Below the pieces are notes generated by a model. That model did no database searches. It saw only the letters and a list, made by a program, of their open reading frames with translations, and was not told the DNA's origin. A DNA stretch of 25,908 nucleotides, from the IMG/VR virus record IMGVR_UViG_3300042568_000180, positions 1-25,908 of that record. One strand, 5' to 3'. Made by a program: the position numbers and the translations under genes. Shown piece by piece: positions 21,324 to 24,617 of this stretch. The stretch's first letter is position 1; each line of letters starts with the position of its first letter. The DNA comes from a virus.

Positions 21324-21998
21324 CCGTCTGCGGGCCTCTTCAGCCCTGCGCTCTGCTTCGATTCGCTTAGCAAGCTGTACCCTGTAGGCCATCTCCACCA
21401 AAACATCAGACATCTTCATATCGTACACAAACTGAAACTTAGTCAAGTCCTCATTTGCCAACGCTCTTACAATCGAGTACCAAAACCACCTTTCGTTAAA
21501 GGTGTCTGGTTCATCTGGCTCTTCCTCCTCTTCTCCCTCGATTGGCTCAATCCTATTGTAGATTACGCCCTCAAACTTGGTAAAAAGAACATAGTCCCTG
21601 TTTTGCATCATACTCTTGATGATGTGCGCTATTGCTATAGCGTCCTCCTCGTAAATCGAGTCTATCAACTTCTCTTCCTTCTCTTGGTCGGTGTTGTCGA
21701 ACTCTGGCTCATCTTTAGGTCTTATGATAAGCGCAGCAACAGATGACTCATCAAACCCGTTCTTGATTGTATGCTCGAGTAAAATAAATTGCGTTAGAGA
21801 CATCTTTAGGATGTCGGTGTACACATTGTATCTGTCGGCTACAGAAGATGCGTCTATGGCCCTAAAACTGGCCTCCTCGAGCTTGTCTGTAGCTCGAATT
21901 ATATCTAGACGCTCTATTGCGGATATCTCTTTTAGAAATTCTTCTAATCTGTCGTTGCTGATTGCATCAGCTAATTTGAGTTTTAATCCGAACCTCAT
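21321..21998 (-). CDS. Putative tail assembly chaperone
   Basis: This 225-aa acidic, helical protein starts at the ATG that overlaps the terL stop (ATGA, 21995-21998). The frame stays open 15 codons further upstream, but that would lie inside terL, so the coupled start is preferred. The C-terminal part (about 167-225: FNERWFWYSIVRALANEDLT, then KFQFVYDMKMSDVLVEMAY, ending EAERRAEEARRR) resembles the WYxxLxxLAxxDxxKxxxV pattern of tail assembly chaperones, which bind tape measure protein during tail assembly. The middle is Glu-rich (EGEEEEEPDEPD). There is no room for a frameshifted extension, because the next gene starts 23 bases after the stop. This is inference from pattern and context. Confidence 0.5.
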   Translation of the reverse strand: MRFGLKLKLADAISNDRLEEFLKEISAIERLDIIRATDKLEEASFRAIDASSVADRYNVYTDILKMSLTQFILLEHTIKNGFDESSVAALIIRPKDEPEFDNTDQEKEEKLIDSIYEEDAIAIAHIIKSMMQNRDYVLFTKFEGVIYNRIEPIEGEEEEEPDEPDTFNERWFWYSIVRALANEDLTKFQFVYDMKMSDVLVEMAYRVQLAKRIEAERRAEEARRR

Positions 21999-23245
21999 AA
22001 GAACATTGTTACTCCACCGTCTTGCTCCTTGAACGCACACCACGCCCCAATAGCCAAAGACATCACCATATCATCGTGCTTACCAAGTGAGTTCGAGAAC
22101 TGGATGTTTCCAGTGATTGGATTTCTCTTGCTCTTGAAGTCGTAAAGTTCCTTAATCAGGTCTAGGTTGTCTGGGATGGTAATCTTCTTGTCCTCGAACA
22201 ACTTCATAAGGTTCCTGATGATTTCAGGCTTGGTTTGACCAGTAGTCTGGAACGGAAGCATCTTGTACATCCTGTCATCCTCGGTAATCTCATCAAACAA
22301 CAAATCGTTGTTGTTGACCTCAAAGTAGCAGGCCATCAACTTCTCATCGTGCTTCAGGTAGAAGTCCTTGATGCGATTCTTGAACATATCAGCATCCATA
22401 CCCAACTCACGATACTGAAACCTATCAATATCGATAACATCATAATCTTGGTTCATTGCGGTTAAAACAGTGTAGTCATACGCAACACCAATGTCCATCC
22501 CAATGTATACTCGTTCGGTGGTGTTTGGGGCATACTGCCGAGTGGCCTCCTCTACGTTGCTAAAGAGCGCATCACCACTTACAGGCTTACACAGGAACTC
22601 TTGGTCGAACTGAGCCTTTGTCATACTCTGCTTGATACCGAGTACCGTCTTCTCAACCAACGGGTCTTTTAGGTCCAGATACGTCCGCTTGATGGATTTA
22701 ATCTGTTCCCAGTTCTTCTCATCCATTCCCTGCACATACTTGTCCCAGTACCAGTTCTTGCCGTTGAATGTCGAAGACATCACCACCCGCCCGCCTGTGC
22801 GAGTCACCATAGGAAGCAAAACCTCGTTGATGAAGTCCTCACTCATAAACGCAGCCTCATCGATGTATATGAAGTCCAACGTAGCACCACGAAGGTTATC
22901 GCCAGAGTCAGCAGACCTAAACTTGATAAAGCTACCATTGTGAAAGAACATCTCATTGTTCTTCCTGTCGAATCGCTTCACTATCTGCTGGAACAGCTCC
23001 TGATGGTTTATGAACGCAGCCTCGATATCCTTCATCACCTTGTTGGCTTGGTCCTGAATAGGGCTAACCCAGAACATACGAGTGCGAGGCTTGTTGAGCG
23101 CCCTCATCACCGCATCGTTCATCATCATAAAAGTCTTACCTGTCTGCCGACCCGCAACGATAAGCGCAATAAACGGCTTGTCCTTGTGGATGACATTCAG
23201 GAAGTCTCTTTGAGGCTCCGAAGGGTTATAGAGATTAATCTTCAT
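21995..23245 (-). CDS. terL: Terminase large subunit
   Basis: This 416-aa DNA-packaging motor protein, which docks on the portal, has ATPase and nuclease halves. A Walker A GRQTGKT occupies residues 32-38, Walker B with catalytic acid (DFIYIDEAAF, 124-133; Asp129/Glu130) follows, and the coupling motif SSTFNG lies at 157-162. In the RNase H-like nuclease, candidate metal ligands are Asp251 (YIGMDIGVAYDYT), Glu309 (ACYFEVNN) and Asp391/Asp392 (KHDDMVMSLAIG). The length and all key residues are intact. The start overlaps the small-subunit stop by 11 bases, and the end overlaps the next gene (ATGA). The packaging type (cos or pac) cannot be decided from this sequence alone. Confidence 0.96.
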   Translation of the reverse strand: MKINLYNPSEPQRDFLNVIHKDKPFIALIVAGRQTGKTFMMMNDAVMRALNKPRTRMFWVSPIQDQANKVMKDIEAAFINHQELFQQIVKRFDRKNNEMFFHNGSFIKFRSADSGDNLRGATLDFIYIDEAAFMSEDFINEVLLPMVTRTGGRVVMSSTFNGKNWYWDKYVQGMDEKNWEQIKSIKRTYLDLKDPLVEKTVLGIKQSMTKAQFDQEFLCKPVSGDALFSNVEEATRQYAPNTTERVYIGMDIGVAYDYTVLTAMNQDYDVIDIDRFQYRELGMDADMFKNRIKDFYLKHDEKLMACYFEVNNNDLLFDEITEDDRMYKMLPFQTTGQTKPEIIRNLMKLFEDKKITIPDNLDLIKELYDFKSKRNPITGNIQFSNSLGKHDDMVMSLAIGAWCAFKEQDGGVTMFL

Positions 23246-23699
23246 CCTCGTAGTCTATGTCGATGAAGCCACCCACGTCTTCGGTTGTTTGTGTAAGGTC
23301 AATCGTTGCCTTCACATCAATCTTAGTCTGCTGGACCTTCACGGGAGCTTTGAAGCCTTGCATATCGTTAATCATCTTCATAGCCTCCATAGCCATCTTG
23401 ACATCACCAACAGACATAGCCTCATCACGAATCTTAATCAGCAACTCAAGGTTCATACCCTTAGTCGCCTCCACCTTCTCCTCGGTCTTGTTGACCACAC
23501 TACGCAAAGCCAAATAAAAAGCAGTGCCGTAGTTGTTCTTGTCCCGATAGTAGCTCGTGTAGTTAAGCTCCTTCGCAATCTTACCCTGCTGCTCGATGCC
23601 CTCAGTGCGGACACGCTCAATGAACTCCTCCTGCATCGCAGTAAGCCCAGAGCCTCTTCCAGAGACCACCTCGTTCTTAGCGTTTCTTATGGATGCCAT
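23235..23699 (-). CDS. terS: Terminase small subunit
   Basis: This is a 154-aa protein from the ATG at 23699. The frame extends to 23750, but that longer start lies deeper in the preceding gene and gives a Cys/Ser-rich leader unlike the rest. Residues ~15-60 (SGLTAMQEEFIERVRTEG, GKIAKELNYTSYYRDK, FYLALRSVVN) form a helical region compatible with the DNA-recognition helix-turn-helix of small terminases. A central helical stretch (MNLELLIKIRDEAMSVG) suits oligomerisation, and the acidic tail (VGGFIDIDYEDED) may contact TerL. The stop overlaps the start of terL by 11 bases, the classical terS-terL arrangement. Its role is recognition of the packaging site and activation of TerL. Confidence 0.78.
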   Translation of the reverse strand: MASIRNAKNEVVSGRGSGLTAMQEEFIERVRTEGIEQQGKIAKELNYTSYYRDKNNYGTAFYLALRSVVNKTEEKVEATKGMNLELLIKIRDEAMSVGDVKMAMEAMKMINDMQGFKAPVKVQQTKIDVKATIDLTQTTEDVGGFIDIDYEDED

Positions 23700-23964
23700 A
23701 CACAGGGATGCTGTTGATACCAAAACGCAAGGTGAAGTAAAACTCATCATCGAACTTAGGCTCGAACTCGTAGTGGTAATACTTCATCACATTAGACTTC
23801 ACACGCTGGATGCAACTACCACAAGCAGTCTTCGGATTCTCAACCACCCGAATGTAGTTTGACTTTCCAACCATAGAGTTGTGAAACTCGAACATCGCTG
23901 CCCTCAAGTCACCCTTCGGCATACTGTGAGTCAACAGCTCTCTAATCAATTCTCTGAATTCCAT
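23677..23964 (-). CDS. Hypothetical CxxC protein preceding terminase
   Basis: This is a 95-aa protein from the ATG at 23964. A TTG six bases further up would add two residues, but it falls inside a -7-like box. The core PKTACGSCIQRVKSNVMKYY (about 45-64) has one CxxC pair, and its last 8 codons overlap terS by 23 bases. Similar small CGSCIQR-type proteins beside terminase genes are familiar to me from Bacteroidota phages and prophages, but I do not know their function. The single CxxC could bind metal as a dimer or act in redox chemistry. It is the first gene of the leftward block. The ATG is only three bases after the -7-like box, so the transcript could be nearly leaderless. Confidence 0.75.
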   Translation of the reverse strand: MEFRELIRELLTHSMPKGDLRAAMFEFHNSMVGKSNYIRVVENPKTACGSCIQRVKSNVMKYYHYEFEPKFDDEFYFTLRFGINSIPVYGIHKKR

Positions 23965-23967
23965 ATC

Positions 23968-23975
23968 CAAATATA
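23968..23975 (-). promoter_or_regulatory. Perfect -7-like box (TATATTTG) at the head of the late block
   Basis: On the minus strand the sequence is TATATTTG, an exact match to the Bacteroidota -7 consensus TAnnTTTG, and the only exact match on the minus strand in the intergenic region. No clear TTG or TTTG box sits about 19 bases further upstream. The first ATG lies three bases downstream, so use of this box would make the first gene leaderless or nearly so. Confidence 0.35.
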
Positions 23976-24010
23976 CAATGAATTACGTTATGAATTACTA
24001 AAAGAACTTT

Positions 24011-24131
24011 GTATAATAGTATACTATATATAGTATACTATCTATATTAGTATACCTATATTACTCTACATTATACTATTATTAATGATATAATAGTAGA
24101 ATACTCGTATAGAGTATTCTATAGTAGTATA
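24011..24131. repeat. Cluster of palindromes and TAGTATA/TATACTA heptamers
   Basis: Seven heptamers lie within about 115 bp: TAGTATA at 24017, 24031, 24048 and 24125, and TATACTA at 24020, 24034 and 24072. The first four form a 26-bp perfect palindrome at 24016-24041. A 9-bp stem with a 7-base loop lies at 24074-24098, and a 10-bp stem with a GTATA loop at 24097-24121. The density is beyond simple A/T richness. A cooperative operator, replication origin or recombination site is possible. Confidence 0.8.
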
Positions 24132-24261
24132 ATAATAGACAGGATAAAATGGGAGTGAGAGCGAATGTTGGCAGAATCGTTCATTCCCCGCGTACAAAGG
24201 GGCTAGTTAAGAACAAAACCAAAATTTTTTACGGTCACACACTAAATTTTTTTTTTACACC

Positions 24262-24291
24262 TTGTTTGTAATTATTTTAGCCCCACATTTG
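24262..24291 (+). promoter_or_regulatory. Candidate rightward promoter (Bacteroidota type)
   Basis: TTG at 24262-24264 (within CTTGTTTG) is followed after 19 bases by CACATTTG at 24284-24291, one mismatch from TAnnTTTG. The spacing fits the Bacteroidota -33/-7 arrangement. The predicted leader to the first rightward ATG is about 60 bases and includes the TTTATACAAATAAT sequence at 24327-24340. This suggests an early promoter recognised by host sigma factor. Confidence 0.5.
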
Positions 24292-24359: not shown

Positions 24360-24617
24360 ATGTCAACCTCTTCAAATCCACAAATGACTAAAGTTCTTGT
24401 AAACAAATCACGGAACCGCATTGCTACGGAGAACGACCTAGCAAAGTTCACAATTATTTCTGTGCTTCAGAACTATTTAGACGAGGATGCCGTCGGAATG
24501 TCTGAAGAATTTCGTCGACACTATGCTAAACACCTTGAAGCAATAACCGCCAAACTTGGCGCACCTGAAGTAGTCGAGGCATATGTACCGAAGCAAAAGT
24601 TCGTATTCGCTGAGTAA
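24360..24617 (+). CDS. Hypothetical small early protein, 85 aa
   Basis: This is the first gene of the rightward block. The protein is hydrophilic with a helical middle (DLAKFTIISVLQNYLDEDAV, about 26-45, and MSEEFRRHYAKHLEAITAKLG, 47-67). It has no recognised motif, no membrane segment and no signal peptide. The ATG follows an A-rich leader (TCTAAAACAAAAATTCAA) without a Shine-Dalgarno sequence, as is usual in Bacteroidota. It is preceded by a candidate promoter and followed by a terminator-like hairpin, so it may be expressed as a single-gene unit. The function is unknown. Small early phage proteins of this kind often bind host factors, but nothing here shows a target. Confidence 0.75.
   Translation: MSTSSNPQMTKVLVNKSRNRIATENDLAKFTIISVLQNYLDEDAVGMSEEFRRHYAKHLEAITAKLGAPEVVEAYVPKQKFVFAE

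Follow-up and report, generated by a model that had tools for sequence, protein, structure and literature searches.

The stretch of DNA analysed here (the window) comprises 25,908 bases of an incomplete virus record, G000 in our own labelling. Genes to the left of position 23964 run leftward and include those for the portal protein, the large terminase (TerL; 21995..23245, minus strand; phrog_2, E 3.5e-51) and a probable small terminase (TerS; 23235..23699, minus strand) with a predicted HTH and helical hairpin. The first gene of this late operon, orf95 (23677..23964, minus strand), is a conserved orphan whose 95-aa product is present in every relative and carries the motif MFxFHNSMVGKS...ENPKTxCGSCIQRVK. 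Its structure is modelled confidently (pLDDT 92.7), and a fold search of solved structures gave no match; one member of the orf95 family has a single weak match to an HNH family. Genes to the right of 24360 run rightward, and the first of these early genes (24360..24617, plus strand) encodes 85 aa.

A DNA search of the phage collection found no isolate that matches the window, and searches with the orf95 and capsid proteins found no isolated phage relatives. The TerL protein is less than 26% identical to those of isolated phages among the matches listed; relatives of 55–100% identity are plentiful among uncultured virus contigs, and no prophage relative of TerL is present among 84,980 genomes. 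Near-complete relatives are about 37–43 kb long, several of them with end overlaps: 135 b in G004, 216 b in G014, 345 b in G047 and 28 b in G034. The helicase-like early protein of the relatives matches those of Flavobacterium and Riemerella phages, and for this reason the host is likely a member of the Bacteroidota. In certain clades only (G034, G029, G017 and others) an early protein has a sigma-70 region 4 domain above the Pfam cut-off, and this is possibly a late sigma factor.

The palindrome array and its surroundings

The non-coding DNA that separates the divergent early and late genes contains an AT-rich array of palindromes and dyads (24012..24139). It includes a 26-bp perfect palindrome, ATAGTATACTATATATAGTATACTAT, that consists of two TAGTATACTA units (24016..24041), a perfect stem-loop with 9-bp arms and a 7-nt loop (24074..24098), and a perfect hairpin with 10-bp arms and a 5-nt loop (24097..24121). 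An earlier account made from the letters alone (the sequence-only reading) had reported the palindrome, the two stem-loops and seven TAGTATA/TATACTA heptamers, and all of these are exactly where it placed them. The 26-bp palindrome is the sole palindrome of at least 14 bp in the whole window, the longest in whole-window dinucleotide shuffles being 12–18 bp, and four heptamers occur in the rest of the window against seven in 24011–24131. The latter 121 bp are 20% GC, a local composition that favours much of the palindrome and heptamer density; dinucleotide shuffles of these 121 bp themselves reach a 26-bp palindrome in 7 of 1000 cases, and shuffles reach seven heptamers in 44 of 2000. Inverted repeats cover 70 nt of the same stretch (shuffle mean 18), which none of 1000 dinucleotide shuffles matched. 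Conservation in relatives, described below, is stronger evidence for the array than these shuffle statistics. The sequence-only reading had also suggested that a GC-skew turning point be looked for here; the skew minimum does fall in the region, and near the site in most contigs, yet this is also where the genes change direction, and the coincidence is therefore no proof.

A putative late promoter with a -7-like element, TATATTTG, lies 3 nt ahead of the start codon of the next gene (23968..23975, minus strand); we assign it by the consensus known for Bacteroidetes. In relatives the late promoter motif is ATTCA..TTGTATATT, and the array lies 63–198 nt (usually 63–108) upstream of it. The late promoter region carries a conserved dyad of its own, AATGAATG..CATTCATT, at 23970–24000 of the window and in many relatives. 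On the other side, inspection alone picked out a weak -7-like element of a possible early promoter, CACATTTG (24284..24291, plus strand), with one mismatch to TAnnTTTG.

Outside the 24011–24131 cluster is a second conserved module, the core (24186–24237), which the sequence-only reading had missed. On the minus strand it contains a GC box, CTAGCCCCTTTGTACGCGGGG (24186..24206), proposed to be a cosN/pac cleavage or recognition element on the strength of its conservation and its co-variation with TerS, and a nearly invariant, cosQ-like TGACCG hexamer (24232..24237; CGGTCA on the plus strand), 48 nt from the G-run of the box.

Conservation in related phages

Dozens of related phages, all uncultured, share this layout ahead of their terminase genes. 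Read in the direction of the late genes it comprises TGACCG, about 40 nt, the GC box (e.g. CTCGGAGCGGGGGG), a variable stretch, the AT-rich array, the late promoter, orf95, TerS and TerL. Across 55 distinct loci the spacing between TGACCG and the G-run is 43–49 nt, and the hexamer holds 1.5–2 bits per position, against 0.0–0.6 in the 40 nt that precede it; for the core as a whole the figures are about 2 bits per base and, in the flanks, 0.1–0.4. Among the contigs examined this combination occurs once per genome, the exceptions being looser chance matches and the terminal repeat of G014, and a degenerate scan of the whole collection for the core found only the phage family of the window plus chance matches in GC-rich contigs.

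Array sequence varies by clade, and the dyads and architecture are kept: relatives carry a hairpin and palindromes TATTATAATA, TAGTATACTA, GTATATATATAC or others, and the TATTATAATA unit is retained across loci whose TerS proteins are down to about half identical. The comparison with related phages that the sequence-only reading had proposed thus finds palindromes and hairpin persisting beside conserved flanking genes. A hairpin with a 5-nt loop and arms of 8–17 bp beats 99% of shuffles in 44 of 55 loci, and equivalents of 24097–24121 in most relatives differ in arm sequence and pair perfectly. In a structure-blind alignment of 20 loci from one clade, 96% of hairpin cells pair and 29 cells are changed on both sides (shuffled mean 7.8; 0 of 500 as high), with no one-sided changes and no G-U or G-T intermediates. 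This absence, in our view, is better explained by a dyad in DNA (protein sites, a cruciform or template-switch repair) than by RNA. An RNA element was rejected on the same ground, and also because the region has no Rfam family or tRNA and both predicted promoters would transcribe away from the array.

In alignment A5 (L022–L151) the central segment of the array reads AGAGTAAAGTA in some phages and its reverse complement, TACTTTACTCT, in others, flanked by inverted TACTATTATAATA arms, as if this segment were able to flip. A separate idea, that the whole array is inverted in the clade of the window, was unsupported, as forward and reverse alignments score alike.

Co-variation with phage proteins

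Array and core were compared with phage proteins by partial Mantel tests on 13–24 de-duplicated but related genomes, with k-mer distances for the array in place of a first-pass local-alignment distance that proved too noisy. With the caveat that false positives arise easily in such tests when the genomes are related, kinship being understated and many families having been scanned, array distance given TerS is correlated with the SSB-like protein (partial Mantel 0.61, p=0.0005, n=22), a 98-aa helicase-adjacent protein (0.71, n=13), a 104-aa early protein (0.51), DnaA-like protein A (0.44, n=21) and the helicase (0.27, p=0.03). The reciprocal comparison of the array with TerS, given the early proteins of the replication module, yields -0.09 to 0.05, and there is no peak with the array at the HTH segment of TerS in a sliding-window scan. 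Recombination-type nuclease and annealing-like genes, although sited among the replication genes, give 0.05 with the array. The orf95 protein, considered as an array-binding protein, was set aside because it shows no co-variation (0.19) and its fold search found no match.

The GC box follows TerS when early genes are controlled for (0.15–0.34; p<0.05 in 6 of 7 tests). It is correlated with the SSB-like (0.36) and 98-aa (0.31) proteins as well, so that the separation of the modules is imperfect. One contig, L110 (G058), is a natural mosaic: several of its early proteins are 84–91% like those of G049/G050, its TerS is 72–78% like those of other clades and 62% like those of G049/G050, and while its GC box belongs with those of the other clades, its array belongs with those of G049/G050. 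Dropping this mosaic and its clade changes the co-variation little. The two modules, array and core, vary separately.

Of 15 relatives, 14 carry the Pfam domain Bac_DnaA_C, many of them in two copies, and six genomes score above the curated cut-off; the PHROG name is DnaA-like replication initiation protein, and the relatives also encode a DnaB-like helicase. The gene for DnaA-like paralog A adjoins that for the SSB-like protein in relatives. We infer that the phage of the window has a DnaA-like gene too: its contig ends before the position of the gene, and relatives at 90% TerL identity have it. Along paralog A the correlation with the array reaches its maximum, 0.74, in the HTH/recognition helix, a value to be read beside maxima near 0.7 in other proteins, TerL included. 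The remainder of paralog A accounts for only 0.06 when the helix is controlled for. When two clades are left out the top segment is the C-terminus, with the helix still a local peak (0.59). Recognition helices of the KGV form occur together with TATTATAATA arrays, those of the DRKSV form with the TAGTATACTA array found in the clade of the window, and those of the SQRMA form with GTATATATATAC. Paralog B keeps the DnaA-like signature (e.g. NHATIIHG) and a conserved recognition helix, and it serves as a useful internal control: the whole protein correlates with the array and its helix does not (about 0.05).

Function of the array and the core

These observations are best explained, in our judgement at slightly under even confidence, if the array is a binding array for DnaA-like protein A, most likely a replication origin, and the core a separate terminase site, most likely the start of packaging. 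Under this model 24012–24139 would be the multi-site target of the DnaA-domain-IV-like paralog A; the protein would bind at the dyads, the AT-rich DNA would then open, and the process would pass to the phage's DnaB-like helicase and its SSB-like protein, while terminase would bind 24186–24237 separately. An origin is favoured because the array co-varies with proteins of the replication module, above all with the recognition helix of paralog A. It is not classed as a DnaA-box origin, since the region has no canonical DnaA box (TTWTNCACA) and the whole window has one match, below chance. The proposal shares with bacterial oriC and DnaA (domain IV, Bac_DnaA_C) an AT-rich array, here with two small domain-carrying phage proteins and a DnaB-like helicase; it differs in that the phage proteins have no AAA+ domain, as far as their length allows, and in that the sites, in place of DnaA boxes, are dyads made up of A and T only, with a sequence that depends on the clade.

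The origin of the Ceduovirus (c2-like) phages of Lactococcus is the nearest precedent that has been tested, both for such a location, as it is sited in the intergenic region that separates divergent early and late genes, and for the occurrence of dissimilar sequence types (PMC7150918). The array studied here likewise occupies a non-coding stretch where early and late genes diverge and likewise comes in several dissimilar types within one phage group. However, c2 origins support plasmid replication with no phage protein supplied (PMC7150918), whereas the co-variation found here points to a phage DnaA-like protein, and here a packaging-like core abuts the array. More tentatively, a stand-alone DnaA-domain-IV-like protein without an AAA+ part may recognise an AT-only array as origin, its helix having changed with the array in several clades, and this origin may be fused head-on to a cos/pac-like core, such that replication and packaging would start within about 225 bp. 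The small DnaA-like protein and the palindrome array would then be a testable pair for the start of replication without a full initiator in an abundant uncultured phage family, with a candidate packaging site as a further yield, and natural variation would supply several matched pairs for studying how DnaA-type recognition helices change specificity.

The sequence-only reading had offered an operator for the late/early switch, a replication origin or a recombination site; the origin is now favoured, the operator retains some plausibility and the recombination site is unsupported. The operator is the main rival, although we consider it rather unlikely. The DnaA-like or another early protein would bind the dyads between two promoters and thereby switch transcription from early to late. 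The array does lie between the predicted early and late promoters, DnaA-type proteins act as transcription factors too, and an operator suits the co-variation with an early DNA-binding protein just as well, as a regulator would give the same co-variation as an initiator. Against this, the strongest co-variation is with the SSB-like protein and the neighbours of the helicase, proteins that would not be expected to follow an operator; about 130 bp at 20% GC exceeds what a simple operator needs; and the late promoter is already provided with the separate conserved dyad described above.

It is less probable, and we disfavour it, that array and core make up a single packaging site in which TerS binds at the array (cosB/pac). 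The order core, array, terS, terL corresponds to the cosQ-cosN-cosB order of lambda-like phages, the total length of about 225 bp is close to that of lambda cos (roughly 200 bp, with a 120-bp cosB; PMC4669245), and array types differ by clade as cosB specificities do. But array type does not follow TerS once the replication genes are controlled for, which is why the array is not classed as cosB, and the TerS HTH gives no peak; the array and TerS of the mosaic L110 derive from different clades, and the distance from G-run to hairpin ranges from 78 to 246 nt.

We think it very improbable that the array is a (nearly) neutral AT-rich spacer whose palindromes grow and stay perfect through template switching at hairpins. 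Its low complexity would suit such a spacer, and quasi-palindrome correction could produce the same uniformly two-sided hairpin changes; its position and architecture are, however, shared by diverged phages with compact genomes, the TATTATAATA unit is conserved despite the divergence of TerS, and the array correlates with the recognition helix. Perfect dyads and a middle segment in two orientations would also suit a site for site-specific recombination, of att, dif or inversion type. This reading can be given very little credence, as no tyrosine or serine recombinase domain was found in 12 relatives by a search that detected its controls (the window's own genome being incomplete), nor any prophage relative of TerL among the 84,980 genomes.

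The core, which sits directly upstream of the terminase genes, is probably a cos/pac-like packaging start bound by terminase, and is read in this way because its GC box varies with TerS. In order and rigid spacing it resembles the cosQ-cosN of lambda-like phages (PMC4669245): a short invariant hexamer keeps an almost constant distance to a GC-rich box, the two stand immediately before terS and terL, and the box follows TerS. It differs in having no sequence match to lambda-like cos and in that the array, which takes the place of cosB, varies independently of TerS. Contig ends are scattered and at most mildly frequent near the core, and no exact ends that would prove a cos were found among the relatives' contigs. 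The terminal repeats of the near-complete contigs G014 and G047 (216 and 345 b) overlap the core, and G040 starts 37 b before TGACCG, which could hint at physical ends there. We note also that contig L014 (positions 1–70) matches L013 exactly from the core's G-run on, with no relation between the two ahead of that point; it may be a recombinant, a chimera or a DNA end.
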